Below, piece by piece: positions 37-27,018 of a DNA stretch of 29,961 nucleotides. The notes beneath the pieces are model-generated. The model saw only the letters and a program-made list of their open reading frames with translations. It was not told the origin of the DNA and did no database searches. The DNA lies in the IMG/VR virus record IMGVR_UViG_3300010157_000183, positions 1-29,961 of that record; one strand, 5' to 3'. The position numbers and the translations under genes are program-made. The stretch comes from a virus. Position 1 is the stretch's first letter, and the number at the start of each line of letters is the position of its first letter.

Positions 37-923
37 TGAGCAAACTTATTGGGTCTGAATGGACGTATCTTAATGCTCTTTCAGATATTTTAGAAACTGG
101 AGAGCATCGGCCTGATAGAACTGGTGTTGGTACTATTAGTAAATTTGGACTACAGTTAAAGTTTGATCTACAACAAGGGTTTCCGGCTATTACTACAAAA
201 CGGTTAGCTTGGAAATCTGTTGTTAGCGAACTACTTTGGTTTATAGAAGGTAGTGGTGATGATAATCGTCTAAAAGAAATTCTACACGGCAGTCGCACTA
301 GCACAGAAAATACTATTTGGTCCAGTAACGCTAACGCAGACTATTGGAAACCAAAGGCACGATTTAAAGGTGATCTAGGCAGAGTCTACGGAGTACAATG
401 GCGTGCATGGCGTGCTCCGGTATTTGGATCCAATAGGATGGCTGTTAAACATGTTGATCAATTGCAAGTATTGATTAATGGCATTAAAAAAGATCCATAT
501 GGGCGTAGACATATCATTAGTGCATGGAATCCCGGTGAACTCGATTTAATGGCATTGCCTCCATGCCACATGATGGCACAGTTCTATGTTAGTAGTAATG
601 GAAAGTTAAGTTGCCATATGTATCAGCGTAGTGCAGATATGTTTCTTGGAGTGCCATTTAATATTGCAAGTTATGCATTATTCACACATATGATTGCACA
701 AGTGTGTAATTTGTCAGTTGGTGAATTAATTATCTCGTTTGGTGATGCTCACATATATGATAATCACTTAGAGCAAGTTAGAGAACAACTAAGCAGAAAG
801 CCTTTAAATCTTCCAACACTTGAATTAAATCCGGTTGAAGGAATAACTATGTTTAAAATGGACGACATTAAATTAGTTGACTACAATTGTTATACAACTA
901 TTAAAGCGCCAATGGCAGTTTAA
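36..923 (+). CDS. thyA: Thymidylate synthase (ThyA family)
   Basis: This enzyme methylates dUMP to dTMP using methylene-tetrahydrofolate, supplying thymidine nucleotides for phage DNA replication. The 295-residue protein carries the whole ThyA signature. The dUMP phosphate-binding arginine is in DRTGVGT (R28) and the paired arginines from the partner subunit are in PYGRRHIISAWNP (R157, R158). The catalytic cysteine is in LPPCHMMAQFYV (C177), followed by QRSADMFLGVPFNIASY (R198, D201, N209) and FGDAHIYDNH (H239, Y241). It is slightly longer than E. coli ThyA (264 residues) and close to T4 Td (286). Unlike T4 td there is no intron; the frame is continuous. The ATG overlaps the stop of the preceding gene, and the stop shares bases with the stop of the convergent fibre gene. 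ThyA makes dihydrofolate, so a reductase from phage or host would be needed. The identification is secure. Confidence 0.97.
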   Translation: MSKLIGSEWTYLNALSDILETGEHRPDRTGVGTISKFGLQLKFDLQQGFPAITTKRLAWKSVVSELLWFIEGSGDDNRLKEILHGSRTSTENTIWSSNANADYWKPKARFKGDLGRVYGVQWRAWRAPVFGSNRMAVKHVDQLQVLINGIKKDPYGRRHIISAWNPGELDLMALPPCHMMAQFYVSSNGKLSCHMYQRSADMFLGVPFNIASYALFTHMIAQVCNLSVGELIISFGDAHIYDNHLEQVREQLSRKPLNLPTLELNPVEGITMFKMDDIKLVDYNCYTTIKAPMAV

Positions 924-2206
924 ACTACCATTACCTCAATAACTCCAAAGCCCCCGATTTGATTTTCGAGGGCTTTGCCTATTATGGCATGTGGAGAATC
1001 ATCTGATGTTATTGACACACATGCATAGCCTGGATAATCACTAGTCATTAAAAGTTCACCTTTGCTAACGGGACCGTAAACTTTGCAAGGAACACGGCCT
1101 TTTAAGGCAATATAGGGGTGAGTTTTATCGTTTCCAGCCTCAGAATTCATCATTAATGCTGGGTTTGTAGACACTATACCTGCTACAGCAGTATCACCTG
1201 CAAATGTAGAAATTGTAACTTCTTTTTCTCCACCAATTACTACAACTGTTCCAGGTTCATACTCGGCATCTGATTCATACCGTTCTGCCAAATCGGCATA
1301 TAACGCACTAGTAGCGAGTCCTTCAAATCGTGTTGCTCTAACATAATTGGTAGAAGGATTATACATAAATCCATAGTCTATATTAATTGTCCCTTTTCCA
1401 TTTGTTGATGTTGTTGAAAACAATACTGGTTTATATGAATTAGTACCATCTACTACAAAGGTTATTCCACTTGTATATGTGGATGAATTTGCATTAATAG
1501 CGTGGGCTGCTGTTCCCCATAATACAGTACCACTTGAATATACACCAGTAGTTGGATTAATACTAGCAGACACGCCAGTAGTTGGATGGGCTCCGATTAA
1601 ATTAATACCTTTGTACAATTTTAAGGGAGGAGTTGCTGCAACATATATAGGATATGAACTAGTTGCATCTGCATATACTTCATATTCTTGATTTGAAACT
1701 ACAGAAACAACATCTGTTCCAATAACTGCCTTAATGTTATATATAGCAGTACCGGGTTGTAATCTATCTTGTTCATATGAACCTCTCCAACCTGCTTGAG
1801 TATCTGCACCAATTGGCGGACCAATTAAAACATATGAAGTTCCGTTGGAAGCAAACAGTTGATCTTCTAAGGAGTTATACCAAAGATTGCCCGTGGGTGG
1901 TGGATTGTTTTCATTAAAAGGATTCTTATCACTAACTATTAGATTAGAAATACTTTTCCACTCTTTTGAATCATAAACATTTATTCTTTTTTTAGAACTA
2001 TCATACCAAATTTCGCCTTCAATTGGTTTAGATGGCGGAGTTGTATTTGAGAAATTTTCTAATAGTTTAATAAAATTTTCATTTTGAGGTTCTCCATATC
2101 CTGCATAGTTTCTTCCTAGAAATAATAAATCAGTACTTTGATCTAATGTAGCATCTTGTACAGTAGCAATTATTGAACCATTAGTTTTATTTAAAATATA
2201 CGCCAT
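920..2206 (-). CDS. Tail-fibre-like virion protein with 'ADLAERY' C-terminal domain
   Basis: This 428-residue protein is the last gene of the structural block and probably a peripheral host-contact fibre. Residues about 27-132 form the double module shared with the next two genes: a 'LGRNYAGYGEP..NFIKLLENF' stretch, then two copies of a G-x-[LI]-W-[YF]-[DN] motif (GEIWYDS, GNLWYNS) ending in LIGPPIG. The middle is threonine-, serine- and glycine-rich with no predicted helices by eye, as in fibre shafts. The C-terminal part (about 300-428) contains ATSALYADLAERYESD, YEPGTVVVIGG, VAGIVSTNPA and GRVPCKVYGPVSKGELL. I recognise this compact beta-rich domain from the ends of other marine T4-like structural proteins. 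It loosely recalls phage self-cleaving or chaperone C-terminal domains of the peptidase G2 type, but no catalytic residues can be assigned. Its stop overlaps the thyA stop tail to tail. Fibre class is likely; exact role is unknown. Confidence 0.75.
   Translation of the reverse strand: MAYILNKTNGSIIATVQDATLDQSTDLLFLGRNYAGYGEPQNENFIKLLENFSNTTPPSKPIEGEIWYDSSKKRINVYDSKEWKSISNLIVSDKNPFNENNPPPTGNLWYNSLEDQLFASNGTSYVLIGPPIGADTQAGWRGSYEQDRLQPGTAIYNIKAVIGTDVVSVVSNQEYEVYADATSSYPIYVAATPPLKLYKGINLIGAHPTTGVSASINPTTGVYSSGTVLWGTAAHAINANSSTYTSGITFVVDGTNSYKPVLFSTTSTNGKGTINIDYGFMYNPSTNYVRATRFEGLATSALYADLAERYESDAEYEPGTVVVIGGEKEVTISTFAGDTAVAGIVSTNPALMMNSEAGNDKTHPYIALKGRVPCKVYGPVSKGELLMTSDYPGYACVSITSDDSPHAIIGKALENQIGGFGVIEVMVV
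947..976. terminator. Possible hairpin terminator between convergent genes
   Basis: AAAGCCC at 947-953 is perfectly complementary to GGGCTTT at 970-976, with an extra CGA/TCG pairing possible inside the 16-base loop. It begins 23 bases past the thyA stop, on the right side to end thyA transcription. It also lies inside the coding end of the convergent fibre gene (codons for KALENQIGGFG), and the T-run after the stem is only three bases. It could equally be coding sequence that happens to pair, so confidence is low. Confidence 0.25.
1811..2128 (-). repeat. Shared fibre module, copy C (two G-x-LWYD motifs)
   Basis: This stretch encodes residues about 27-132 of the 428-residue fibre. It matches the modules at 2837-3148 and 4526-4870 in layout: an [LV]G..Y.NYG-like opening, NF.KLLE.F, GEIWYDS with a following VYD, then GNLWYNS and a closing LIGP. 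The two LWYD motifs within the module also resemble each other, so an internal duplication preceded the duplication of the genes. The match is clear in protein and weak in DNA. Confidence 0.75.
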
Positions 2207-2212
2207 TTTTAA

Positions 2213-2217
2213 TCCTT
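2213..2217 (-). promoter_or_regulatory. Shine-Dalgarno site of the 428-residue fibre gene
   Basis: On the minus strand AAGGA precedes the ATG at 2206 by six bases and overlaps the stop codon of the preceding gene. It is the clearest ribosome-binding site in the window and supports the chosen start. Most other starts here lack a good SD and sit 1-5 bases after a stop codon or next to an AT-rich box. Confidence 0.6.
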
Positions 2218-3229
2218 AAAGTACTACAATATTAGTTAGGGTATTCAGCGCCGTATTAAAATATATATCATAATATTTCCATATTTTTATACCCGGATGT
2301 ATTGGGTCATCTATTAAATGAAAGCGACGAACAGACGGTACAAACACTGTACTAACAGAATAATAAGCGCACATTACCTTAGCATCAGATCCAATTGCAT
2401 ATCCTGTTTCATTAAGTTGCGTATTGGTTGCAGTTGAATAAAGAAGTCGCAAGTATTGGCTAATAGCCGCATTGCCTGCCGCTATATTTGCGATTGCTGT
2501 AGAAGTAGTTGCATGGGCAGGATTTCCATATTCGGTAATATCATAATATGTTGTCAATGTTTTAATTGGCGGCATCTGTTGAACACCGTTAATATATAAA
2601 CTGTTTTTAATATCTAAATTATCGGATACAGTAATACCTTTTACAATTGTTGAAGTAGTTGCATTACCAAGATATGTGGCGCTATCAGTAGCCTTCATAG
2701 TAAATGAAGAAGTAGTTATTACTCCCATTGAAGATCCATATGTATATATCACTCCTACTTTTTGCGGATACTGTGTATCATTTTCTCTAATAGTTGCAGA
2801 AGGAAGATCAATACCAAACTTTCCTAACAATCCAGAAACTGACGGTCCGATTAATTTATAGATAGAACCATTCCATATACGTAGTTGACTATTAATAGTA
2901 TCATACCAAAGGTCACCTGTACTTGTTGTAACTGCTGCTGTTCCGCTTACAGTAGCACCATATGTTGGTTTAAATGAATTACCATCATATACTGTTAATC
3001 GTTTAGAAGTTGTATTAAACCAAAGTTGTCCAATTTGCGGACTTCTTGGTTCGCTATCTATCGGTGCAGCAAAACTTGTTAATAGTTTTACTAGATTATT
3101 ATTAAAATATTGTCCGTAATTATCAACATTTTTTCCAATTAAATCTAAACTGGTAGTACTACTATCAACCTGACCACTGGCTATGTTTAGTAAAACTGAC
3201 CCGTCGTTATTATATATGATGTATGCCAT
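2216..3229 (-). CDS. Tail-fibre-like virion protein, short paralogue
   Basis: At 337 residues this is the shortest of three neighbouring fibre-like proteins. Residues about 28-131 carry the shared module: LDLIGKNVDNYG, NNLVKLLTSF, GQLWFNT, then GDLWYDT with LRIWNG and KLIGPSVSG. Beyond it lies a region unlike the other two, with short beta-strand-like stretches (TYGSSMGVITTSSF, LYINGVQQMPP) and an aromatic end around IKIWKYYDIYFN. I see no collar, chaperone or known receptor-binding domain, so the tip may be a specific adhesin or part of a hetero-fibre. It starts three bases after the preceding stop, and its own stop overlaps the next gene's SD, pointing to coupled translation. Structural role is inferred from the shared module and position. 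Confidence 0.7.
   Translation of the reverse strand: MAYIIYNNDGSVLLNIASGQVDSSTTSLDLIGKNVDNYGQYFNNNLVKLLTSFAAPIDSEPRSPQIGQLWFNTTSKRLTVYDGNSFKPTYGATVSGTAAVTTSTGDLWYDTINSQLRIWNGSIYKLIGPSVSGLLGKFGIDLPSATIRENDTQYPQKVGVIYTYGSSMGVITTSSFTMKATDSATYLGNATTSTIVKGITVSDNLDIKNSLYINGVQQMPPIKTLTTYYDITEYGNPAHATTSTAIANIAAGNAAISQYLRLLYSTATNTQLNETGYAIGSDAKVMCAYYSVSTVFVPSVRRFHLIDDPIHPGIKIWKYYDIYFNTALNTLTNIVVL
2837..3148 (-). repeat. Shared fibre module, copy B (two G-x-LWYD motifs)
   Basis: Residues about 28-131 of the 337-residue fibre. The first motif is GQLWFNTTSKRLTVYDG and the second GDLWYDTINSQLRIWNG, so within this copy the internal duplication is very clear. It ends in LIGPSV like its paralogues. Confidence 0.75.
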
Positions 3230-3232
3230 ATG

Positions 3233-4972
3233 TTATGTCTTTATTATATATGTTAAATATCCACCAGTAGGAATTGAAGTTGCTGTTGACAAATTAGGAG
3301 TCCTAAAATATCCCGGACTTGCAGTTCCATAAGTACCACCTATTACACTATAAAGATTGGTATAATTTGTTATCTGATAAGAGTTTCCTAAACATGGTAA
3401 GAATCCCGACGGAAGATTAGTTGAAGTTCCAAATGCAGTTATCATTCCAGTTGTAAACAAACTAGAATATATGTCAGACAAGAAATCTAATTTAGAGATT
3501 TTTTGTAAACTAGAAACTGCTGTACTAGTATCTAACACCAATAATGTTTGTGTCGGAGTTGTACTAGAAACAGGAGATTGAGCATTAATTGCATCTCGTG
3601 TTAATGTAGTTGCAAATACGGCGGTGCCGGTTCCTTTGAATAACACCGAAGTAGCAGTAACTTGCCCTTGTATGTTAAATTCTCTAGCAGTTGCTAATGA
3701 TGTTGCAGATCCTGTTACACTTCCATTAAACGTTGTTGCATATATATCGGTAGCATAAATTTCTCTAAATTTACGTGTAGTTGATCCAATGTCATATACT
3801 CCGTTAATACTAGGAAGTAATATTGCTCCGGATCCTGTGCTAGTTCCCAAAGTCATTACATCGGTACTAGTTGTTCTTCCATTTATTTTTAAATTACCTG
3901 CATTTAAATTTCCAATGATCGATGCACCATTACTAACTGATAATGATGCCACTATACTCACATTATCTAAAAATCTTCCGCCACCATTAACATCTAAAGT
4001 AGGAGAACTAACAGTAGTTGCTGTATTAATACCAACATTATTATATCCAGAATTGAATCTTAAATAAGCATTAGAATTAATTCCAATTTTTAGCGTACCC
4101 GATGTGGTGCTATTTTCAAAATTAATAAATGAATCATTTGCTGAATTATATATCTTAAGAGGATTGTTAGTAGAATTAGATCTAACAGTTAATCCGTTTG
4201 TTGATTGTATATTAAGAGAACCTGCAAGTGTTTGCGCGGTAGCATTATTTGTTAGTACTTCTGTAGACTTAACTAATACACCTGTAGAAATTTCTAATGT
4301 TGATGCTCGTTCTGCAATTCCGTTATATTTTGCAGGCACCTTACTTGTTAAATTTGTTCCAATTTTAATTGTTGCAAATCCATCTATTACAGTTCTAGGA
4401 GTGAATGAATTGTAAGAAATAATTTCTACTACATTTCCATTTGCCCAATTTTTAATAATAGGATATCTGTCTCCTGTGGTACTTTCTACAGATACTGCTT
4501 CTGATCCCGATTTAGTATTTCCAGATTGAACAGAAGGTCCCACCACAGTCCAATTATTACTAAATCTAATTTTTAATTGATTATTTGAAGTATCAACCCA
4601 AATATCTCCCTCATTAAGATTGTTAGAGTATCGTATAATAGGATCAGTAGATTGTTGATATATACCATTGGCACTCGGCCATCTTCCCCCGTCTACACCA
4701 CCATTGTTAATTCTTAAAACTGGTTTGTTAACATCAGTAGTATCATACCAAAGTTGACCTTTAATAGCATTTGACGGTTTATTAGGGCCTGCAAAATTTT
4801 CTAATAATTTTAAAAAATTCTGAGCAACTGGAAGACCGTAGTTTGAGTAACCAGGACCAACCAATGACAAACTTGTATCATTGTTAACTCCGGGTCCCTG
4901 CGGTACCGGTAATATAGTAACGGTGTTAACGTTATTTGGATCTGAGAATTTTAATACGTACGGTGATGTCAT
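3233..4972 (-). CDS. Tail fibre protein with C-terminal tail-collar domain
   Basis: This 579-residue protein is probably a short or peripheral tail fibre attached to the baseplate edge. Residues about 35-149 hold the shared module (LSLVGPGYSNYG, GQLWYDTT, GDIWVDTS, VVGPSVQSG). The shaft, about 150-500, has typical fibre sequence: many T, S, N and G residues, LDVNGGGRFLDNVSIVASL, and YDIGSTTRKFREIYATDIYA followed by FNGSVTGSATSLATA, a pattern common in long-fibre shafts. Residues about 508-579 match the phage tail-collar family found in T4 gp12 and many bacterial adhesins: GMITAFG, LPSGFLPCLG, YTNLYSVIGGTYG and YFRTPNLS. The start codon lies two bases after the stop of the 221-residue gene. 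Position at the distal side of the wedge genes corresponds to T4 genes 10-12. The fibre call is strong; gp12 equivalence is inference. Confidence 0.85.
   Translation of the reverse strand: MTSPYVLKFSDPNNVNTVTILPVPQGPGVNNDTSLSLVGPGYSNYGLPVAQNFLKLLENFAGPNKPSNAIKGQLWYDTTDVNKPVLRINNGGVDGGRWPSANGIYQQSTDPIIRYSNNLNEGDIWVDTSNNQLKIRFSNNWTVVGPSVQSGNTKSGSEAVSVESTTGDRYPIIKNWANGNVVEIISYNSFTPRTVIDGFATIKIGTNLTSKVPAKYNGIAERASTLEISTGVLVKSTEVLTNNATAQTLAGSLNIQSTNGLTVRSNSTNNPLKIYNSANDSFINFENSTTSGTLKIGINSNAYLRFNSGYNNVGINTATTVSSPTLDVNGGGRFLDNVSIVASLSVSNGASIIGNLNAGNLKINGRTTSTDVMTLGTSTGSGAILLPSINGVYDIGSTTRKFREIYATDIYATTFNGSVTGSATSLATAREFNIQGQVTATSVLFKGTGTAVFATTLTRDAINAQSPVSSTTPTQTLLVLDTSTAVSSLQKISKLDFLSDIYSSLFTTGMITAFGTSTNLPSGFLPCLGNSYQITNYTNLYSVIGGTYGTASPGYFRTPNLSTATSIPTGGYLTYIIKT
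4526..4870 (-). repeat. Shared fibre module, copy A (two G-x-LWYD motifs)
   Basis: Residues about 35-149 of the collar-domain fibre. This copy has a longer spacer between GQLWYDTT and GDIWVDTS (about 50 residues, against about 40 in the others), with a glycine-rich insert. The module's position just after a short N-terminal strand suggests a baseplate-attachment function shared by all three fibres. Confidence 0.7.
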
Positions 4973-4974
4973 GA

Positions 4975-5640
4975 TTAAATTCCAGTACTAATACTTTGGA
5001 TTCTTATTGTATAATCAATTTGAATCATTCTGTTTAAAGATTTCTGTACAGGATGAAAAATAACATGAGTTAGCAATGATCCCAAATTTGGTCCATCTTC
5101 GCTATACCCTTTTAGTCCTAGTTCATCAAATACATATGCGCCATCTTGGTTAGTACTATTATCAAATGCAGATTGATTGTAAGGTTCTCCAAAGTCTAAT
5201 AAACAACTAACTAACACATCGGTGTAGGCAACACCCGATATATGCCTAGTTTCCATAAAATTTCTTGCTGGATCTATTGTATGAGAACGTTTTGAATCAA
5301 CTGTTTTTACATAAGTTTGATTATATAATGCCGCAGCACTACCTATAGTATTTGGTGTTAGATACGTAATAATACCAGTTGGATCAACACGACTTCCCCC
5401 GTTGCCAAATACCATTTCTGCTATAGGACCGTTTGATTGATTTGATATACTGCTTGCTAATGCTATAGAAAAGTTTTCGTAATGAATGGCATTTCTCTTA
5501 TCAACAAACACTTCTTTAGTACTAGGATCAAAAATCTTAATATGACCTTGAACGCTTACTGAACCGGTTTCGTTAGGTTTTGAAGCCTGCATTGGCTTAC
5601 TATCGTTGGGTAAATTATTCATTTGTTTATTATCATCCAT
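4975..5640 (-). CDS. Conserved virion structural protein (function unassigned)
   Basis: The 221-residue protein opens with a polar tail of about 25 residues (rich in N, K, S, P), followed by a conserved-looking core: VSVQGHIKIFDPSTKEVF, DKRNAIHYENFS, EMVFGNGGSRVDPTG and IITYLTPN. It ends with VIFHPVQKSLNRMIQIDYTI. I recognise this type from T4-like phages of marine bacteria, where it sits beside baseplate and fibre genes. I do not know a tested function and no enzyme motif is visible. It lies between the giant protein and the first fibre, suggesting an adaptor joining fibres to the baseplate, which is inference. Start choice is not certain: methionines at positions 7 and 17 are alternatives, and a GATAAATA box sits only five bases before the chosen ATG. 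Confidence 0.7.
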   Translation of the reverse strand: MDDNKQMNNLPNDSKPMQASKPNETGSVSVQGHIKIFDPSTKEVFVDKRNAIHYENFSIALASSISNQSNGPIAEMVFGNGGSRVDPTGIITYLTPNTIGSAAALYNQTYVKTVDSKRSHTIDPARNFMETRHISGVAYTDVLVSCLLDFGEPYNQSAFDNSTNQDGAYVFDELGLKGYSEDGPNLGSLLTHVIFHPVQKSLNRMIQIDYTIRIQSISTGI

Positions 5641-11600: not shown

Positions 11601-14600
11601 ATGATCAACTGAAAAATCGTATTCTCTTAAGAAGGTATTAGGAACTGTATCTAATTTGTTTAAATTATCAAAATTATAATTACCTGTTATTCTATTTTTA
11701 ATTAAAACAGAATTAGCAAATTCAACGATATTACGTAATGCTTCTTTTCTATTTTTAAATAAAGTTTGTTGAGGACGAATTCCTATACCATATCTATTTC
11801 TATAGGTTGAATTAATTGCAGGAACAGCATTACCTAATTGATCATGCCCTAACAAACTGTCAATTAATTTTTTCTCAAGTAACGTAGTAGGCATGCTATT
11901 AGCATCACCTTCTGATAATAATACCCATTCAGTATGTTTTGGAATTGTATTGCTAATAGTATCAATGGTAATGTTTGCATTGATCCTATTACCAACTAAC
12001 ATTGGTTGAACATTCGCAAATGCTACACTACTCGGTGATAAAATTTCAGCAAATTTCAATCCATTAGCAGTAGGGTCAGAAATTATTCTAGATACTTGAT
12101 AACTGCTTATTCTTCTATTCGATGTGGCTGGTACTGTAACTTTATTTTTAACCCAGAAAAAGTATACATTCTCAAATGAGTTAGTTACATTATTAAATAA
12201 TTGTTTAATAGACACTACACTGTTATCAGGATATTTTGGTTGTCCACTTATTCCTTTTGTTAAACCTTCATTTGTATCTGCTTGAGCGGCCCATTCACTA
12301 GGTAATAAATCAGACCTAACCCATTCATAAACGTCAATACTTGAACCAGGAAATAATTTACCCCAATTATTTTTTCTAAAAATATCGTCGCCTTGTTCAT
12401 ACCACATATATTTTGTAGTACTTAAATCCCACCATAGTTCTCCTACATGATCATCTATCCAACTTGTACTACTATCAACAATAGTGTAAGCGAGACCGAC
12501 AGTATAAGTAGCAGGGTCAAACGCAGATTTATATCTTAATTCTTGCTCTGCAATGCCTGCAATTTTTCCTTTTACTGGATCAATAACATCTAAATATTCT
12601 ACAATTTCTTCTTTAAAAGAATCTATCAACGCTATGCGATCAACAGTAGAGATATCTACAAGGTCATCTTGTTGGCGTAATAGTTTTAAACTGCCTATTG
12701 TTGAATCAATTTTACTAAATTGATAGAATGACGATGTGTCGTTATTTGCTGAAACATTATATGTAGGCGCTCCTACATATATATTATTATTTGTAGCAAT
12801 AACTGATGATCCATACTTACTACCTTCTGCTATAGAAGAATCAACTAATTCTTCAGACAATACAAAATGACCATCTAAATTACTATAAACATATACAGTT
12901 CCTGCATCTGATAAAGACTCTGTAAACTGTGTAGTACCTTCATCAAATGTAGTAGTACCTTGTTTAGAAGTTATATCAAATTCAGTAATAATTGAATTAT
13001 TAGTACCCAATGCACTTATAGATAAAGTATTATTATCTTGGCTAATAGATATAGAATGTCCAAATTTTAAATCATTAGTGTATGAAGGATTTTTTATAAT
13101 TTGAGTAAGTTCATACGAATAACCAGTCGGGTGTGGACTTAGTGCTAAACTACGTTCAGCAAGATTTGCAGCATATTGAGCAGGATTTAATAAATTATTA
13201 TCAATCACAGACTGAGCAAATCCGGCAAGCCCATTTAACATCCAATATCTAATGCTGGCTTCATCTGGATATAGTTGTGCATCAGGATTTTGAAAATATG
13301 CAGCAAGTACGGCTGCTCTTGTTGCTACTGTATTAAACGCATCTGCTGCTCTTTCTGCATCATATATTGCTGCATCTGCCGGATTGGCTGCTCTATAGTC
13401 AACCCAGAATTGATGAAAAACTCCAGTCTCGCCCAAACCTACCTTCATCCAATTTAAAATAGTTTCTTCACCATAGTATACAGGTGCTAACTCTTCAGCA
13501 GCAAGTGAAAATATTACTTCTGGGCGGGTTGAGTTATAGTAAGGAGTTAGCGTTTTTTTATAAACAGCAACCTTGCCGTAAGGTTCTCCTATTGATTTTG
13601 ATTCTGTTGAAGATACAAATAGATGCGAGCCATCGGGTGATGCTATTACATCACTACCAAATTCAGAAGATGTTCCAAATGGTGATTTTAATGTTTGTCT
13701 CCAAGAAAAATCTTTATCATATAATTGTACAATACCTACATTTGTTCCTGTGGTAACAATGTGTTTAGGAGCACTTATAGCGATAACTGTTCCTGTGGTG
13801 TCTCCTGCAATTTTATGTCCAAATTGACTTCCTGGAGATAATGTTACATGAGAAGATAACTCAATTCCCACAACTGGATGTACTGAAATTACTGTACTAG
13901 GTTTAATTAACGATGCTGCTGCTCGTTCAGCAATATTTGCAGCATATTGGTCAGGATATAATGTATTACGAAGATTTACCACATAATTAAACACATAATA
14001 GGGATCATTACCATATGGTATTAAACCGTTTAACATCCAATATCTAATATCTTCTTCAGAAGGATACAATTGTGCATTAGGATTTATTTGATATGCACGT
14101 ATTACAGTTGCTCTAGTTTCTACCGCACCTATAGCATCGTTAATTCGCCAAATATCCCAGATTGCTGCTTCATTGGGATTTGCTAATCTATAGTCATGTA
14201 TTAATTTATTAAAACCGGGTGCTGTATCAAGACCAAAAGTCATCCAATTTAAAATAGTTTCTTCACCGTAATATAACGGTGCTTCTAAATTAGCGGCCAA
14301 TGCATATATTACTTCTGCACGGGTAGATTTATAATATCCTGTTCTTGTTACACCATAGGCATATACATGCCCTGTGTTGGTTGGATTTTCAGGACCGCTT
14401 GGCGCACCAACTAACAATGTTGTACTTGCTGTAGAAACCGTTTCATTTATATAAATTGAATGACCGAATCTAGAATAATTAGCAGTTTGAGCAGTAGTAG
14501 CATAAGGATTTACTAAAATTGTTGAGTCTGTTTCTTTAGTAAATGTATTATTAATACTACTAATTTTTACTAAGCCTTCTGAAGAGAAATTCTTTGTATA

Positions 14601-17600
14601 ACCGGTACCTGTACTGAGTATTACTACGCCACTAGTTAAAGTATTTGCACTATTAATAACAACATTTGTTGCGTTAGGTGCACCTGCAAAATATAAATTT
14701 TTTCCAGTATCATACTGCAAAGAATAACCAAATTGTGCTTTTATGTTAGGATAGCAATATGTTGCTAAGTCTGTGTTTAAACTATATTCAAATTTCTTTT
14801 CTAAAACACTTGTAGTTTTATGTTTAGTGTATACCCAAACGCTTCCTATTCCTGGAGTATTTTTAACAGTCCAACCTGGTGCAGATACCATTAATATATT
14901 TGTATTATCTGATGTGTAAATAGATTTTCCTAACTCCGAATGTAGACTTAACGAAGTTATTGTAGCAGTAAAATGACCATTAACCCCCACCGAGTAATTT
15001 TTTATTTTTTCATAAACTTGCCACTTGTCGTTAATGCCTTCATCTATCCAAATTTTTTCATTGTTCTTTAAATTTAAAATATCTGTTGAATTAGCAACTT
15101 CTTTAATATTTTTATATCGTGCATTTTCAAATTTAAACAATGCTCCATAACTTAATAATTCTGCATCAACTATAGAGGTTAAACTTGATGCTACCGTAAA
15201 TTGATCTAATTTAGCGATATCAATTATAATGTGTATACCATTAACTTGCTCATTAAATCTAACTACAGAAACAATGTCACCTATTGATAATCCATGCGGT
15301 TGGTCAGTTACAAATGTTATGCTGGACCCGGGGGCACTTACATATACTCCTGCAATCTTAGAAGATTGTTTAGAGTATCTACTAACGCCCCAGCCGCCGT
15401 TTTCTAAAAATCCCATCCATATAGTATTGCCATCTTGTAATACAGAATTATTAGCAATATCTAATAAACTATTTTTATTATATGCTGTAGCGGTAACATC
15501 ATCTGCTCTAATATATCCAGCAGTAGTCAATACTAAATTATTATCAAAGAATGTGCTAGAAGACATTATTGGAAACGTATTTGCCGATGAGTAACTATCC
15601 GGAGTTAATAATAAGTCCGACTGAGACACATATGTCACCAGCGGATTTGCATCAGCAGGAGTTTCAGAAAATTTAACAAGATATGGATTTTCTAAAGATG
15701 TACTTTCATTTAAATTAAATTCTATTTCATTGTATGTTGAAAAACTTCCGTAATTACCTGATCTGAATGCCCAATCTTCAGTTAATAAAATGTCCCCTTG
15801 ACGTGTAAACTTACCAACTTTGGATAATTTATCAATAGAATTTTTAGTTCCTTTTTCCTTAATGTATCCTTGATAAAATTTATATTGGCTAATTGAATTT
15901 GTAAAAATATTATTAAGGTATGTTCTTGGAGTATAACCAATTAAATGTTGTGCTAGTTTTTGTTGGGTAGAATCAAAATTATCAATATCTAAACTATAAA
16001 AGTCTTCGAATTGATTAATTTTATAATCAAAATTAGGTAATAAATTTGATACCGGCTTACTATCTAGTTTGATCCATTTTTCAAAATCAAAAGTAGCATC
16101 TCCGATAATTTTAACAGTTGATTCATAATACGAACCGTTATATCTTACCACTTTTCCCGGTAAGTATGTTCCATATGCTGTCCAATCTATAATAGTAACA
16201 TTGTCGTAAACAAAACCGGGACTAGATAAATCACCATTCCAATTGGCAGTTCTAAATCCTGATAGTTTAATTCTTCGTTGCTTGTATCCTGTTTCAATAT
16301 CGTATATAGTATCATTAAAAATTGTTTTATTGTTAAAAACCATTCCGTGTTCTTTTTGTACAGAATTTAATGTAGCAAAAAACATACCTTCAAGAGTGTC
16401 AATAGTATTAATTACACAAACACCGTCTTCTCTTGATAAACGAAATTTATCTAATGGAAATGATTTTCCATCGGCTTTTAATATACTAAAATCATAATCT
16501 CCGGTAGTAATATCATCAACCACCGAATCAATAAATGAATATTTTAGATAATCCGCAAATGGACTTAATGTAATTAAATTTCCGTCTGCCCAATTTTGCG
16601 TAGTCCAATATAAGAATTCTTTAGCAGTAAATTTCCAATTTACTATATCATTAAGATCAGTATTATATTCATCAAATATAAATCCTTGACTTTCAAGATA
16701 GGCACCGTACCCAATTAATAAATCGTATACTTCTTGTATTGTTGAATAACTTGTACCATATGGAACTACTGTTACTGTGTTTTCAAATCTTGAAGATAAT
16801 TGTGCGGTGGCGCCGCCTACCATAGGCAATGATGGTAAGGCTTGAAATAATGTTATATCAAATGTAGATTGTGTATTATGACCAACTTTAACTATATAAA
16901 ATGTTCCATTATATCTTACAATCTGACCTTGTTTATAATAATGTGTTGTGTTTGCTGTAGTAGATGTAATATCAATTGCACTAAGACCACTGTTGCCACT
17001 GTTGCCGGCGCCTGTCCATTCTGTAAATGACTCAGATTTTCCTCCAACAGTAATTGCACCGGATGCTAAACTTTTAGTAGGTTTAAGTATTTCAAAATAT
17101 GGATTTGTAGTGTCATATCCCTTAATAATGAAATTACCATTAGACCGTTGTACTATAACTCCGGATATTCTAGCAGACTTAATAGGATTACTTACATTTA
17201 AAATTAATGAATAGTCTTCAGGCGGTAAGATTGCTCCTTGTGCTTGTGACACAGGATCAATAGAGTCAATAACAATTTGCAATTTATCTTTGCTTGCAAA
17301 TCCTCCTAATTTATGGAATAGATTAAAATTAATATAAGTTAAGTCTTGTGTTAATAATTCAAGATAGTTTAAATCTTTCTGTTTTCCCCGTTCAATAACA
17401 TAAACGCCAAATCCGGCTGATTGTACATCTTCTCCATCTAATATAAGTTTAGAAGGATTTAAATAAAGATCATTTGCCTTATATGTTAACTGATTTTTAA
17501 TATTTAGATAACTTCTACTTGTATCAAACATAGAAGAAGTATATGAGCAAGGATCAAGTAAGGCGGATAACGCATTTACAGCAAATGGCCAATAACTGCT

Positions 17601-20844: not shown

Positions 20845-23800
20845 TTAAGATCCGCTAGTTGTTACAATCGATGAAGATTTTAATTGTGATGCAGTAATCG
20901 CATCAATAATTTCTATATCAGAAATTTTTGCACCACTTATGAATATCTCATTTGATAAACATGTTAGTTCATATAAACTTCCAAAACTATTATTATCAGT
21001 AACTGGTACAATAACAAAATTGGTAATATCAGGTGTAAGTAAATTCATAATATAAGTTGATAGTTCGCCAAAGTGAAAACTTTGTCCAAAGTCCCAATTT
21101 TCTAAAGCAAAAAAATCATTTATACCCAACAATATTCTTGTTTTTAAATCATTGTCATTAGTTATTCTATCAGGATTTTTAACCGCTTTAAATTTTGCCT
21201 GAAGATTTATATTAGCATTTGCACCAAATAATATTTTATAACGTACTGGGTGAAATACTATTTCATCACTTATTGATTTAATAGGAGAAAGAGATGGAAG
21301 ATAATTTTGTTCTAAATTTTGACTAGTTGGAGGTAGCGGTTCACTTGATACATTACCTAACAACCAACTTCTTACATCATTATCGTATGAGGTTGTCAAC
21401 ATATAGATATCTATAATATTTGATTTACTAGGATCAATTCGTCTTTCTTCACCACTATTATGCTCATAATGAAATTTAATATTAGAACATCCAGACCTAC
21501 CGATATATTGATCAGTATATATAAACTTCTGATATGCTTTTGACCAATACTTAACAACATTTAAAGAAGGACTATAAAAATAGAACAATTGCCCATCAAT
21601 TTTATACTCAGATGTTACGCTATTTTCATTTAAAAATGGAAGTATATCATCTGAAGTTAATGCAAATCTTGCAGTAGACCCTACTCTTTTAAAATAAACA
21701 AATTGTGATCCTACAATATTAGTAAATGAATCTGGATCTAAAATTTGCCCTGTGCCGGTATAATCATAAAAACTAATTTTTACTCGTTGAGGATCAACAT
21801 AACCATCAACTTCAACAATAGAATCATCTATTTGCCATATATAGTCGTGATCCAATGGGGTAGATGCATTTGATAAATTAATAGAAAGAACTGTAATTTT
21901 ATCTTTAATTACAGAATTATTTGTGTAATCAAAATTTACAGAAGATTTATCATTTAAAAATGAAGTTTCTTTATCACTTTCAAATATATAATCTAATGTT
22001 CTATATCGCACCTTATAACTTTTTCCAGTCCAAATAAATGCAATCAACCAACTTGAATCTAGTCCCAAGTCTTCCATATTATTTTGATTTGATAAACTAA
22101 AAGGATTCATTATATCTAAATTAGAATTAACAATTATACTCCATTCCCTAGTTAACGTATCAATTGTTAATCCAAAATTACGTTGTGTCATGCATATATT
22201 TGCAATTTCACTTTCTATAGAATAGCCTAATAGGCTATTAAATTTGTATATTACTTCTTGTGGAACGGCTCCGTGCGGAACAATGGTAGAAAAAATTATA
22301 GGACCGGTTCCGTCACTTAACTTTCCCTGACCGTAGTTAGAACCATCACCTATAACTTGTTTAACTGTAGACCAAATATAAGACTTCCCACTTGCTGGAA
22401 TTCCAGTTGTAGGAATTGTTTTTAATAAATTATTTTTATCAAAATATTTTCCAGATGGCGGCAAAAATTTGATTATCGATCCCGGAAATACGTATTGAAG
22501 ATTCGATCCTGATGTAGTTCCTACTGCTACAGGAAGTTCCGAAATAGTAAAATATCCACGACTTTCACCGGGTGTAGTATTAGCATTATACCATTTTAAG
22601 GATAGATATGTTAAATTAAAACTGCTGTACTTGTTAAGATAAAAAGATCGTAACTCAGGTAATGCAACAATAGGATTTAATCTATTTTTAATAACCGACA
22701 GTACTTGATTTTTACTAATAAATTCAAATTCAAATATATGTTCTTGTTCTTCTTTGTATAGAATACCGTCAGTTGCAAATATATTAGTCTTACTATATTT
22801 TCCACTAACATCTGATATGTCAAAATATTTACTAAGTCCACTAGATATTCTATTAATACTTTTAACTTTAAGAATGTTCGAACCAGCAGTTAACGGAGCA
22901 ATATTATAATCCTCTCCTGTAATCATTCTATTTTGAGTATAGTATGACTGCGGTGCTTTGGACCTAATACTTGAATTAGATTCTGGACCTGCACTATTAG
23001 TGACTGTATACTGCAAACTTAATGTTAATTGTAAATTATGATTTTGTCCTAAAGAATTTGTGTAAGGAACTGTAATGATAACCCCTGTCATTTGTTCAGG
23101 TTTTATAATATATGACAACCCATTACTTTGTCTATAAAATAATCTAAAATCTCCTTTTGGAAGATCGCCAAATATTCCATCAGTAAAATTTAGATCAATT
23201 TGATCTTGGTCACGTGTTGATATAGCATATATTGCTCTTAAACTTTTATTAAGGCTATTATATATTACATTATTTCCCACTAATGAAGGAACAGGTGTCC
23301 ACAATGTATAAAAATTTCCATTTTTATCTAATTGCCATAACCAGGCATCAGTATTATTAATATTAGGTGTGTTTATTCCTATAATCTCATTAGGTACTGG
23401 ATTATCAATATTAAATCTAGAAACACTTAAACTGCCCTGTTTAAATTGTGTAAAGAATCCAGTATTAGCACTACCACTTCCTTGATTATCATTTTTATAA
23501 ATTAAACTAAATGCATTTTTAGGAGCAGGGGCTTCTTCGTAAATATAATCCTTACCGCTAAATGTAGACGGAACAATTTCAAAATTCATCGAGGTTCCAT
23601 TGATGCTTTTAGAAAAATTAAAAATTGGAACATCATCATTTGAACTATTAATTCTATATTGGTCAGTTTCTACCGCGTTAATAGTTCCACGACTTGCAGG
23701 ATTTCCAAAATTGCTAGACATTGCTGAATTCATTATATTAATGAATTGTTGATACCAACTAGAATTAGTAGGATCGTTCCATCCTACGGTAACATTTGCT

Positions 23801-24207
23801 AAATTTAAACCAGTTGCATCATATACACTATCTGTTGTAGATACAGCAGTAACTTTTAATAAACCGCTAGCAGGGATATTTCTTGCAGGATTATAACTAA
23901 TTAATTGTGCAAGACGTAATACACTATCTCGACGTTGGGCAGTTTCTAAAAAGTTTTCACGAGCATTTAGATCGATACGAAAACTTAAATTTTGTCCTAG
24001 ATATGCAATAACATCAATAAGAGCAATATACTCGCTACTATCAACATAGTCATTGAATTCTTCAGGATATTTTTCCTGAAGATATGAAATCATTGTACGA
24101 CGAAGAGTTTCAAAGTCGTAACTTTTAAAATCAGCATTACGGAAAGATTGGTATACTTTTTTCCAATCTTCTGCTACTAATAGTTTTGTGTTAGTTGAGG
24201 GTATCAT
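20845..24207 (-). CDS. 6: Baseplate wedge subunit gp6, enlarged
   Basis: gp6 is the wedge protein that forms the ring around the hub and triggers the baseplate change that lets the sheath contract. The N-terminal 110 residues contain DWKKVYQSFRNADFKSYDF, YPEEFNDYVDSSEYIALID, LGQNLSFRIDLNARENFLE and RLAQLISYNPARN, the conserved gp6 start. The last 110 (from about 1011) contain INDFFALENWDFGQSF, ELSTYIMNLLTPDI, FGSLYELT and NEIFISGA, matching the T4 gp6 end. The protein has 1120 residues against 660 in T4, so several hundred extra residues lie between two well-kept ends. The middle is beta-rich with no domain I recognise. The gene starts 42 bases after gp25 and its stop is one base before the giant gene's ATG. 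No good SD is visible; the gene symbol follows T4. Confidence 0.95.
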   Translation of the reverse strand: MIPSTNTKLLVAEDWKKVYQSFRNADFKSYDFETLRRTMISYLQEKYPEEFNDYVDSSEYIALIDVIAYLGQNLSFRIDLNARENFLETAQRRDSVLRLAQLISYNPARNIPASGLLKVTAVSTTDSVYDATGLNLANVTVGWNDPTNSSWYQQFINIMNSAMSSNFGNPASRGTINAVETDQYRINSSNDDVPIFNFSKSINGTSMNFEIVPSTFSGKDYIYEEAPAPKNAFSLIYKNDNQGSGSANTGFFTQFKQGSLSVSRFNIDNPVPNEIIGINTPNINNTDAWLWQLDKNGNFYTLWTPVPSLVGNNVIYNSLNKSLRAIYAISTRDQDQIDLNFTDGIFGDLPKGDFRLFYRQSNGLSYIIKPEQMTGVIITVPYTNSLGQNHNLQLTLSLQYTVTNSAGPESNSSIRSKAPQSYYTQNRMITGEDYNIAPLTAGSNILKVKSINRISSGLSKYFDISDVSGKYSKTNIFATDGILYKEEQEHIFEFEFISKNQVLSVIKNRLNPIVALPELRSFYLNKYSSFNLTYLSLKWYNANTTPGESRGYFTISELPVAVGTTSGSNLQYVFPGSIIKFLPPSGKYFDKNNLLKTIPTTGIPASGKSYIWSTVKQVIGDGSNYGQGKLSDGTGPIIFSTIVPHGAVPQEVIYKFNSLLGYSIESEIANICMTQRNFGLTIDTLTREWSIIVNSNLDIMNPFSLSNQNNMEDLGLDSSWLIAFIWTGKSYKVRYRTLDYIFESDKETSFLNDKSSVNFDYTNNSVIKDKITVLSINLSNASTPLDHDYIWQIDDSIVEVDGYVDPQRVKISFYDYTGTGQILDPDSFTNIVGSQFVYFKRVGSTARFALTSDDILPFLNENSVTSEYKIDGQLFYFYSPSLNVVKYWSKAYQKFIYTDQYIGRSGCSNIKFHYEHNSGEERRIDPSKSNIIDIYMLTTSYDNDVRSWLLGNVSSEPLPPTSQNLEQNYLPSLSPIKSISDEIVFHPVRYKILFGANANINLQAKFKAVKNPDRITNDNDLKTRILLGINDFFALENWDFGQSFHFGELSTYIMNLLTPDITNFVIVPVTDNNSFGSLYELTCLSNEIFISGAKISDIEIIDAITASQLKSSSIVTTSGS

Positions 24208-24249: not shown

Positions 24250-24690
24250 TTATTGTTGTACCCGTAATCCAATCTTTTGATCAAACGCAAGTTTTAATAC
24301 ACTAGATTGATTTGTGTTTTTCATTGCCAATATAATTTCAATCAAATACCCTTGCGGATATTCAGTAATTGCAATCCGTAAAGGAGAAACTCTAGGATCA
24401 GAATTGCATATATCAGTAATATCTTTTGTAAGGAGATCTTTAATTTGAGGAGTTATTGGCTCCATTAATATATCCCAAACAATGGTTCCAAACTTAGGAT
24501 TCATTACCCGTTGTCCCTTACGAGTATTAAACTGATTAAGAATATTTTGTTTGATTAAATCAAAATCATAAAGTTTAGATCCTCTGTTAGTAGGATTAAC
24601 TGTGCTAAACCCTTTATAATATTGGCTTAGTTTATCAGTATGTTGATCACTATAACCGGCAGGAGTAATTTCAAGATTTTTGTAAGGCAT
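24250..24690 (-). CDS. 25: Baseplate wedge subunit gp25
   Basis: gp25 is a small wedge component at the inner baseplate; in T4 it bridges gp6, gp53 and the first sheath ring. The 146-residue protein matches the gp25/W-like family (T4 gp25 has 132 residues). It has the family core FNTRKGQRVMNPKFGTIVWD followed by LMEPITPQIKDLLTKDI, then DPRVSPLRIAITEYPQGYLIE and a closing beta strand. The family resembles lysozyme only by old annotation; no catalytic pair is present. It sits between the spike gene and gp6, whereas in T4 gene 25 lies in a different cluster. The start is preceded by an AATAAATA box, not by a ribosome-binding site. Confidence 0.95.
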   Translation of the reverse strand: MPYKNLEITPAGYSDQHTDKLSQYYKGFSTVNPTNRGSKLYDFDLIKQNILNQFNTRKGQRVMNPKFGTIVWDILMEPITPQIKDLLTKDITDICNSDPRVSPLRIAITEYPQGYLIEIILAMKNTNQSSVLKLAFDQKIGLRVQQ

Positions 24691-24717: not shown

Positions 24718-27018
24718 TTATCTGTGCGGTGCTGGAGAGCCGCTACCAGATTGTACTGGACGTCCGCTACTATCAACTAATATACCTCCTGAGCCTGTAC
24801 CAACAACATTTCCTTGTAATTGACCTAAGAAACATTCATAATATCCCTTTTTACGGGTATGAATATCGGGTGTATTAAATCCAATTGCCTTACATGCTGC
24901 TTCAAAATAACCGGGATCTGTTTGAGCAACTTTACATCTATCCAACATATACTTAACTGCAACTTCAGCAGCGATAGCCGGCGTATTTAATAGTTGAGGA
25001 TTTCCAATTAAATCTTGCCCAATCATTGTTCCGTACCTAGCATAGTTACTTCTACCAGTTAGTTGAATGTATCCTCTACCTATATACTTGCCGCCGTCGC
25101 CGGATTGAGTATTACCTAGACCTTTACCTTTAGAAGTAGTACTACCATATAAAAATTCAGGTAACGTATTATTAGGATTGCCTGCATATTGTTGAGCAAG
25201 TGCTGTATCGCCTTTGAACACGCTAGGAAATACTTGTAACAATCTATCAGCAGAATACTTAAATCCTTCTTCAACCAACTTCCAACGACATTCGCCACCT
25301 GCTATACCCAATAGCGATGCAATAGCAATAGGAGTAGTAAGCCCAAATTTTGCACAAGCCGCTTTGATAGCACTAATACCTTCCTGTGATGAACTAGCAT
25401 TAATATCCTTAGAATATTCAGGCGTACAAGTTCCAGGAGTTACATCTGGTAGGTTAGCAGGTTCTTGTTTTCCAGCAGCAGGATTAGGAGGAATCCCCGA
25501 AGCACTTCTGTCTGCTAATGTTACATCCGTAGCCTCTGGACTAAATTGTGCAGGATTAATTGATTCATGTTGTGGCCAAGGTTCGTGCGTTGGCACACGT
25601 TGCATGATAGTTTTAATTGTACCTGTATTATAAAACTTTCCATCACTCCATCCCCAACTTACTAATCGTTGTGGCAAACTAAACAATGGTAAATCTGGAG
25701 GAACTTCAGCAGCATCGGCGGCGGCAGGAGATCCTGCGGTTGGACCATTCCAATGTATATTTGCTCCTGTTCCAATGATGTTGCCAGTAGCACCTAAGTT
25801 TAATTGTGCTGATGTACCTAAATTAATATTGCCATTTGATTTAAGATTAATAGTTCCAACAGCGGCTTGTTTAATATCCTGTGCAGAACTTAAACTATAA
25901 CTATTACCTACTGTAATTTTAACAGCATCACCTATAGTTTCATCATGTGTTCCCCTGATAGCAATCTTTTGATCTTGATCTACAGTAAGATAATTATAAC
26001 CAGTTATATTGGTCTCCATATTTTTACCGGCTTTAACATGAATATTGCGGCCTGCTTCAAAATTAATATCTCTATCAGCACGGAAGTTAAAATCATGCTC
26101 TGTATGTATGCTTATACTATCATGTGCATATATATCAATCTTTCCATTAGATGTTAATTCAATCCATGCAGTACCTTGACTATTGGCTATATAAATTAAA
26201 TCGTTAGTATTATGTAATAGAATTTGATGACCTGTTCTTGTACGCAATCTAACTAACTCATTTTGTCCGTTAACATCGCCGTCATCCATCACAAATGTTG
26301 TTCCACCTAATCTACTCACAGGTGCTTGTGAATTCCCCGTATAACCTATCTTGCCTCGTTTAGCACCCGAACTAGAATCTAATGGGCCAGGGGTTGAAAT
26401 ACCAAAAACTCCACTAGGAACTTCTCGTCTAGCACTGCTAGAAGTAACTCCCCTAATGGTATCTAAAAGCAACCCCTGTTGTACCAATCTATCAGCAAAT
26501 GGATGAATTGGTTTTTTAAATTTTTCAGGATTAGGATTTGATAAATCTTTTGATTTTTTGTGAAACTCTGCAACGGGCAAATAATCTGTTCCGTATTTTC
26601 TGCGTTGCTCATCTGTCATCTCTACTTGACGACTTGCAGCAATACCAGGAATCATATGATTTTGAAACACATCATTAACACAGCCTATCCAATATCCTTG
26701 ATTAGGGTCGCCGTCAATGAATATAATCATAACCGTCGCTCCTATATCCGGCGGGATCATCCACATACCATAAGATTTTTGTACATCGTTGAAGTCACTA
26801 CTGTTGGTTCCTTCATATCGAGAAGAAGTATTGCCACCAAATGGTGTCAACTGCCTAACTACATATGTTTCACCTTGTTCTCCAGTTACACTTGGGATAC
26901 TTTTAATTAATGCAACTTCCAACCCTCCCATATACGTAGGATCAAGATGATTTGTTACCTCGGCCAAATACGGACCAGGTGTTGGTAATTTAGATCGCGC
27001 TCTTTTTTCAGTAGCCAT
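24718..27018 (-). CDS. 5: Baseplate spike gp5 with C-terminal GH19-type lytic domain
   Basis: This 766-residue protein is the trimeric cell-puncturing spike. Residues about 12-125 form an OB-fold-like entry domain (GPYLAEVTNHLDPTYMGGLEV, MIPPDIGATVMIIFIDGDP, GYWIGCV). About 237-425 is the beta-helical needle, with repeated short strands such as GKIDIYAHDSISIHTEHDF, RDINFEAGRNIHVKAGKNM and GNINLGTSAQLNLGATGNI. After a proline-rich linker, residues about 545-740 are a GH19 chitinase/endolysin-like domain: GGECRWKLVEEGFKYSADRL holds the likely catalytic glutamates E576 and E584, and YIGRGYIQLTGRSNYARYG is the family signature. T4 gp5 instead has a GH24 lysozyme between OB fold and needle. The substrate is probably peptidoglycan, since GH19-type domains in phages act as muramidases. 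It starts five bases after the hub gene's stop, behind a GGATAA element. Spike and lytic calls are firm; substrate is inferred. Confidence 0.93.
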   Translation of the reverse strand: MATEKRARSKLPTPGPYLAEVTNHLDPTYMGGLEVALIKSIPSVTGEQGETYVVRQLTPFGGNTSSRYEGTNSSDFNDVQKSYGMWMIPPDIGATVMIIFIDGDPNQGYWIGCVNDVFQNHMIPGIAASRQVEMTDEQRRKYGTDYLPVAEFHKKSKDLSNPNPEKFKKPIHPFADRLVQQGLLLDTIRGVTSSSARREVPSGVFGISTPGPLDSSSGAKRGKIGYTGNSQAPVSRLGGTTFVMDDGDVNGQNELVRLRTRTGHQILLHNTNDLIYIANSQGTAWIELTSNGKIDIYAHDSISIHTEHDFNFRADRDINFEAGRNIHVKAGKNMETNITGYNYLTVDQDQKIAIRGTHDETIGDAVKITVGNSYSLSSAQDIKQAAVGTINLKSNGNINLGTSAQLNLGATGNIIGTGANIHWNGPTAGSPAAADAAEVPPDLPLFSLPQRLVSWGWSDGKFYNTGTIKTIMQRVPTHEPWPQHESINPAQFSPEATDVTLADRSASGIPPNPAAGKQEPANLPDVTPGTCTPEYSKDINASSSQEGISAIKAACAKFGLTTPIAIASLLGIAGGECRWKLVEEGFKYSADRLLQVFPSVFKGDTALAQQYAGNPNNTLPEFLYGSTTSKGKGLGNTQSGDGGKYIGRGYIQLTGRSNYARYGTMIGQDLIGNPQLLNTPAIAAEVAVKYMLDRCKVAQTDPGYFEAACKAIGFNTPDIHTRKKGYYECFLGQLQGNVVGTGSGGILVDSSGRPVQSGSGSPAPHR
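24799..25398 (-). other. GH19-type lytic domain of the spike protein
   Basis: Residues about 541-740 of the spike. The first catalytic glutamate lies in AGGECRW, where the usual HES has become GEC; histidine before the glutamate is replaced by glycine. The second is E584 in VEEGFKYS, eight residues on. The Y-x-GRG-x-IQLTGR-x-NY signature is complete, so the fold and probably activity are kept. Placement after the needle is unlike T4. Confidence 0.85.

Follow-up and report, generated by a model that had tools for sequence, protein, structure and literature searches.

The closest described counterpart of the domain analysed here is the FG-GAP propeller of integrin alpha chains, which a predicted model of the domain resembles in its seven four-stranded blades and which supplied its best solved matches in Foldseek and VIA searches. 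Some integrins carry an alpha-I domain between blades 2 and 3, and the capacity to bear a whole domain in a propeller loop is common to integrin alpha and the phage protein; the inserts lie in different places, however, those of the phage protein being helical pairs predicted to lie between strands 3 and 4 in blades 3 and 5. Modular insertion is itself a known kind of event in phage tail proteins. Beta-propellers have been described in the nozzles of T7 and SU10, in the K1F endosialidase and in a phAss-1 structural protein (PMC10607447); in the part of that article consulted they are described neither as inserts in a wedge protein nor as bearing helical inserts.

Further points of comparison come from sequence families. 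DUF4214 (PF13946) is made up of helical modules in large surface-type proteins and shares one similar tryptophan-bearing stretch with the helical units. The giant protein of the phages RaK2 and PA5oct (phrog_10938) has a conserved flank, found downstream of the propeller in our protein, and a baseplate wedge gene as its neighbour. Among phage proteins of the He_PIG/Ig-like and Calx-beta-like kind, one in related phages carries four units of the type described below. A description of this repeat, or of a propeller in this baseplate protein, was not found in the open-access literature searched, mostly as titles and the starts of abstracts and including PMC10253068, PMC3622015 and PMC10607447.

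The window, as we call the whole stretch of DNA analysed, comprises 29,961 nucleotides of an uncultured phage (IMG/VR record IMGVR_UViG_3300010157_000183, positions 1-29,961). What appears to be new in it, judged from sequence and predicted models and against the literature searched, is the combination of an integrin-like propeller, set in a baseplate-wedge-region protein, and a paired helical plug-in that belongs to no recognised family. The architecture resembles a Russian doll, in which a wedge-region protein holds an optional propeller, the propeller an optional helical pair and the pair, in two relatives, a nested domain, each level being present in some relatives and absent in others.

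The giant protein and its propeller

The giant open reading frame matches phrog_10938, 'virion structural protein', with an E-value of 4.8e-223, and is flanked in the window by genes of the baseplate wedge and hub (Table 1). Its PA5oct homologue, EST35_0128, adjoins an annotated baseplate wedge gene in a record marked ESI-MS/MS; since the units are unmatched in the phage-isolate collection (see below), this mass-spectrometric support applies to a homologue without them. The RaK2 homologue, gp465/ORF070w, also lies beside a gene annotated as baseplate wedge, and in the related contig L108 the homologue additionally matches 'baseplate wedge subunit' PHROGs and is followed, as in the window, by a relative of phrog_11259. 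Taken together, the wedge neighbours, the phrog_10938 match and the homologues in PA5oct, RaK2 and L108 give the gene the homology and synteny of wedge-region virion proteins of jumbo myophages, and mark its product as a giant protein of the baseplate wedge region in a relative of the jumbo phages RaK2 and PA5oct.

Table 1. Positions of the features discussed, in the window unless another locus is named.
Feature	Position	Strand	Basis
Giant protein of the baseplate wedge region, probable virion protein and host of the propeller, 5056 aa	5673..20843	-	phrog_10938; homologues by wedge genes
Predicted seven-bladed integrin-type beta-propeller, residues 1948-2724, both helical blocks included	12672..15002	-	AlphaFold2
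Unit 1a, first half of block 1, blade 3 strand 3-4 hairpin (predicted), residues 2174-2242	14118..14324	-	
Unit 1b, second half of block 1, residues 2243-2311	13911..14117	-	
Unit 2a, first half of block 2, blade 5 strand 3-4 hairpin (predicted), residues 2439-2507	13323..13529	-	
Unit 2b, second half of block 2, residues 2508-2568	13140..13322	-	
Nested domain inside b unit	L017:5152-5709; L035:5176-5718		beta-rich by eye
gp6-like baseplate wedge protein (context)	20845..24207	-	phrog_10646 baseplate wedge subunit, E 3.6e-281
gp25-like baseplate wedge protein (context)	24250..24690	-	PF04965, E 7.8e-08; phrog_43
gp5-like baseplate hub with lysozyme/GH19-type domain (context)	24718..27018	-	Pfam and PHROG matches
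Conserved small protein phrog_11259, next gene downstream of the giant gene (context)	4975..5640	-	

An AlphaFold2 model of residues 1885-2760, computed from 30 aligned rows, reached a pLDDT of 80.2 and a pTM of 0.69, and the mean pLDDT over ten residues ranges from 59 to 82 across block 1 and from 60 to 92 across block 2. Its DSSP strands, grouped by eye, fall into seven sets (model residues 91-137, 158-227, 245-438, 461-502, 515-700, 709-782 and 796-840) and form seven blades of four antiparallel strands each, with one extra three-residue strand in the set at 158-227. In Foldseek against the PDB the top matches of this model were integrin alpha heads (9b9k_A, E 3.5e-9); in VIA all 50 matches listed were integrin chains, among them the integrin alphaM head 9t3y_A (Z 34.5, 373 aligned residues, rmsd 3.2 Å). 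A Pfam search of the giant protein brought up FG-GAP_2 (PF14312) under its cut-off (E 2.6e-4, 21.5 bits against 23). Identity with integrin alpha is about 15% and, in contrast to integrin alpha, residues 1948-2724 of the window's giant protein contain no DxDxDG-type metal-binding loop (D.[DNS].[DNS]G); among 34 orthologue regions, counted with redundant rows and flanks, 4 contain the pattern D.[DN].[DN]G, by eye always in the flanks.

In the model, block 1 forms eight helices (291-426) between strands 275-284 and 432-438 of blade 3, and block 2 another eight (556-683) between strands 540-548 and 691-700 of blade 5. The strand preceding each block is the third of its blade and carries the motif 'GxVxxY', and it is the strand 3-4 hairpin that is filled. 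As modelled, an integrin-like seven-bladed propeller with both blocks as separate helical inserts is well supported. A preliminary description, made from the sequence alone, had envisaged helical arms projecting from matching edges of a propeller and proposed structure prediction as a check; the blocks do come out as separate all-helical inserts, with the arms predicted in equivalent hairpins of blades 3 and 5, and a fold contradicting this did not appear. It had also set both blocks after the closing strand of one propeller unit and before the 'FG' of the next. Here the equivalence of the two places, each following strand 3, is borne out, but the model has a fourth strand between the block and the next 'FG', which puts the block within a blade and not between blades.

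The propeller itself is, by comparison of homologues, an optional insert in a conserved giant protein. PA5oct lacks it: there the downstream flank (i-E 8e-16) begins eight residues past a stretch that weakly resembles the upstream flank (i-E 0.29), with no propeller between. RaK2 has an unmatched stretch at this place, and phages of the G025 type have a YHYH domain (PF14240), found at residues 260-462 of the giant protein in L062 (E 5.8e-28), at residues 254-467 in L064 (E 6.5e-30) and in L108 too.

The paired helical units

The four units open with TRAEV (residue 2174), TRATV (2243), TRPEV (2439) and TRAAV (2508), and all six of their pairwise local alignments exceed 500 of 500 shuffles. Comparisons of the same type score highest (1a with 2a, 178, 38/68 identical; 1b with 2b, 159, 36/68 identical), against scores of 47-76 for the four a-b comparisons (17/32, 22/54, 22/67 and 21/61 identical), and over their full length the two blocks align with two gaps, of 7 residues and 1 residue. 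With an HMM of the four units, 44 stretches were detected in the 25 non-redundant orthologues (the window among them); they represent 42 units, since an inserted domain divides two of these, and the reversed sequences gave no hit. The four units, and the closer likeness of the a units to each other than to their b partners, had been read from the sequence in the preliminary description, and both readings hold. The copying of a two-unit block, which it had also proposed, is supported by the a-a and b-b likeness, by the even number of units in every array found and by a recombination tract between the blocks (see below). Its unit length of about 69 residues agrees with the a-to-b spacing of 69 in both blocks, but unit 2b is shorter, at about 60-63 residues. 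A further likeness, of unit 2a to residues 840-885, scored 50, BLAST of the neighbouring stretch gave E 0.52, and we treated it as chance.

Because the VIA list for the whole propeller model was full of integrins and uninformative on the blocks, a separate model of the pair was searched. Folded alone from a 24-row pair alignment, the pair gave a pLDDT of 93.8 and a pTM of 0.86, with four helices predicted in each unit. Foldseek with this model returned nothing significant from the PDB (best E 2.6, probability 0.04) or from BFVD (best E 1.8), and VIA gave a best Z of 2.7 among 95 chains, with no known family prominent. For the predicted fold, then, no structural match was found, an absence that does not amount to proof of a new fold; since the pair is confidently modelled and nothing in these searches resembled it significantly, it would be a good new-fold target.

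Searches by sequence agree with this picture. When 36 units were searched singly, the best E-values were 0.018 in Pfam and 0.0088 in PHROGs, with each family matched by at most two units; scans of the block against Pfam and PHROGs, and a PDB sequence search with the units (best E 0.087), stayed at chance level. Neither the blocks and arrays nor a second, DUF4214-like module described below found a match by tblastn at E up to 1 in 50,697 phage-isolate records. DUF4214 is absent from the nine Pfam families matched by any of the 36 units at E up to 1, and the window searched with this family gave 0 matches at E 0.001. Profile-profile comparison with 24 DUF4214 domains gave probabilities of 9.4% for the unit and 11.8% for the pair, over 24 columns, against 99.7% for a versus b units and 0.07-0.2% for three column-shuffled controls. 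We accordingly rejected confident membership of the units in DUF4214, and a match to a characterised domain, which the preliminary description had named as a refutation, did not appear in Pfam, PHROGs or PDB sequences.

Distribution, recombination and exchange

Viral contigs were scanned with the block, the conserved flank, b units, a units and Calx-type arrays; loci are given L numbers. Before counting, L006, L007, L008 and L012 were dropped as contigs of L001, L003, L002 and L004, as were loci with identical propeller regions (L019, identical to L017; L022 and L023 to L021; L028 to L027; L033 to L032) and L034 (95.4% identical to L031). The window and L001 (96.9%) were both retained, and L091, L043 and L046 duplicate L090, L042 and L045 in the unit-bearing protein. 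The sole locus from the genome-contig scan, L036, was also dropped, its 17-residue match (HMM i-E 0.012 over 19 positions) not being a unit.

Units were found in 14 of the 29 records behind the loci and in 11 of 25 non-redundant orthologues, the window included (12 of 26 when L090 is added), whose propeller region, with flanks, runs from 602 to 1186 residues. At site 1 a pair is present in the window, L001, L009, L010, L014, L015, L032 and L090; site 2 holds a pair in the window, L001, L002, L017 and L035, and six units in L009, L011 and L032, L011 being cut at its 5' end such that its site 1 lies outside the covered sequence. The arrangements at sites 1 and 2 are thus 2+2, 2+0, 0+2 and 2+6, and in each array found the units are even in number, with the split b unit of L017 and L035 counted as one. 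No insert of at least 18 residues occurs in L004, L013, L018, L020, L021, L030 or L031, L025 has one of 23, and other inserts are found in L003, L016 (unrelated ones at site 2), L024, L026, L027 and L029. On a flank tree of 25 rows, site 1 requires at least two changes (24 rows) and site 2, with its states distinguished, at least six.

Block sequence has recombined between blades. When both blocks of the window and L001 were aligned and the informative columns compared, block 1 of L001 was the same as that of the window in each of the first 338 columns, 118 of them informative, which end halfway through unit 1b. Columns 339-433 include 52 informative positions that agree with block 2, one that agrees with neither block and none that agrees with block 1; beyond them, up to column 500, all 36 informative columns are again of the block 1 type. 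The switch points lie within stretches common to both blocks. In L001, part of unit 1b is replaced by 2b sequence, although either state may be ancestral. On a tree of blocks, the site-2 blocks of the window and L002 group with site-1 blocks (90/97), apart from the site-2 arrays of L009, L011 and L032, which suggests two routes into site 2; this claim is weakened because a single origin is not significantly worse (AU test, p 0.22). Of 12 orthologue pairs, 9 show a block whose similarity is some 4-14 points below that of the propeller core, one of them due to the recombination tract, and the block is as similar as the core in the other three (L009/L032, 53-58 against 56%; window/L002, 56 against 57%; window/L009, 57 against 54%). 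Since these three disagree and the 12 pairs are not independent, faster evolution of the block would be a tendency only.

The sites and the units can each occur with other partners. In L003, site 2 (L003:8376-8702) holds a different, helical-looking module, which an HMM built only from copies in L042 and L044 finds at an i-E of 2.9e-17. This second module is DUF4214-like, with a profile-profile probability of 91% and a Pfam DUF4214 match of 2e-4 in L044, under the cut-off; with its motif YGLxRxPDxxGLxYW it recurs in large phage proteins (L042-L046, L003, L100, L101, L103, L104, L105 and L107). L042-L046, three distinct sequences, encode a He_PIG/Calx-beta-type protein of 1783-2307 aa that holds four units of the window type together with copies of the second module. 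Its units lie, by eye, in an apparent Calx-beta-like domain and not in a propeller; the Pfam Calx-beta match (2e-4, below the cut-off) is elsewhere in the protein. Three of the four searched records with this protein also contain a distant homologue of the giant protein (E 2e-71 to 6e-74). In G025, the open reading frames of at least 150 aa run on one strand from the giant gene, here without propeller, through phrog_11259, a tail-fibre-like gene and a 1227-aa frame to the unit-bearing gene, the fourth such frame downstream, and the window's phrog_11259 gene beside the giant gene matches its G025 counterpart at 113 of 201 residues.

The b unit of L017 and L035 is interrupted between helix 2 and helix 3 by a different domain of about 125 residues (Table 1). 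The nested domain of L017 has no match in Pfam (E up to 0.5) and no PDB sequence match (E up to 10), and it counts as one event, because the two loci are sister sequences.

Possible roles of the module

We lean, somewhat beyond an even chance, towards an exchangeable paired four-helix module in propeller hairpins, spreading by pair duplication and recombination and serving most likely for host contact. The module would be a tandem pair of four-helix units, with eight helices and about 136 residues, seated in the hairpin between strands 3 and 4 in both blade 3 and blade 5 of an optional integrin-like propeller. Whole-pair duplication and recombination between blocks would have spread and diversified it, and related phages also have it in a second protein of surface type encoded among their tail genes. 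Its role would most likely be display at the baseplate rim, where it would bind a ligand or lengthen the protein's reach as an arm in contact with the host surface. The repeat, its pairing, its optional distribution, its sites, the sequence exchange between blocks and the occurrence in a second tail-cluster protein are observed, the folds are predicted, and exposure on the virion, host contact and any ligand are proposals. We infer an exposed part under changing selection because the module is optional, repeatedly gained or lost, recombining and found in the loops of tail-cluster proteins of two kinds; on phage tails such pressure usually comes from contact with the host.

The blocks could instead be structural arms, linking adjacent subunits so as to stabilise the rim of the baseplate and taking no part in contact with the host. 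That their host protein is encoded in the baseplate wedge gene cluster and that the two blocks are predicted in equivalent hairpins would suit such arms, and helical repeats frequently act as spacers. However, the blocks are absent from 14 of 25 orthologues, including L003 and L004, which keep the propeller between flanks 80% and 74% identical to those of the window; the number of units per site varies (0, 2 or 6), and the same kind of unit sits in the Calx-beta-type protein as well. Weakened by the orthologues without the module, this explanation seems to us rather unlikely.

It is improbable, in our estimation, that the blocks are near-neutral expansions, duplicates tolerated in permissive propeller hairpins and spread by recombination with no selected function. 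Propeller loops do take unrelated inserts (L003, L016, L024, L026 and L029), recombination between blocks is directly observed and the blocks tend towards lower similarity than the core, but the reading frame has stayed open, all 36 units compared, at 27-61% identity to the first, keep V9 and W31, and three phages keep the pairs p1, p2 and p3 in the same order. More improbable still is that the units are diverged DUF4214 domains and hence a known surface-protein family, for which a 24-column profile match around the tryptophan-bearing helix (P 0.0025-0.0034) and the DUF4214-like second module in the same protein contexts speak, but against which stand the low profile probabilities and the missing Pfam matches given above.

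Returning to the exchangeable module proposed to serve host contact, a bolder form of this reading, which we hold a little short of evenly balanced, would have the pair as an undescribed helical family with a fold absent from the PDB: a plug-in of jumbo-type phages that moves pairwise between propeller and tail-adhesin loops, may enclose a further domain and adjusts host attachment through its copy number and recombination, much as integrins use alpha-I. Since its levels are variably present, the architecture supplies a natural series (insert-free, single and multiple) for testing the module's effect on host attachment.

Some minor observations concern other parts of the window. A repeat of the type 'GxGYxxxPTVTI', seen by eye in the giant protein near residues 3110 and 3520-3600, also forms the blade 7 insert in the propellers of L024, L026 and L029. 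The C-terminal domain of the gp5-like hub is of GH19/endolysin type (PF00182, E 8.5e-8). Three adjacent genes on the minus strand at 920-4972 have a similar N-terminal region, as if one gene had been tripled, and phrog_14394 matches their residues 2-71, 3-76 and 10-86. On the plus strand, opposing the structural genes, positions 36-923 hold a 295-aa open reading frame that by eye is thymidylate synthase-like.
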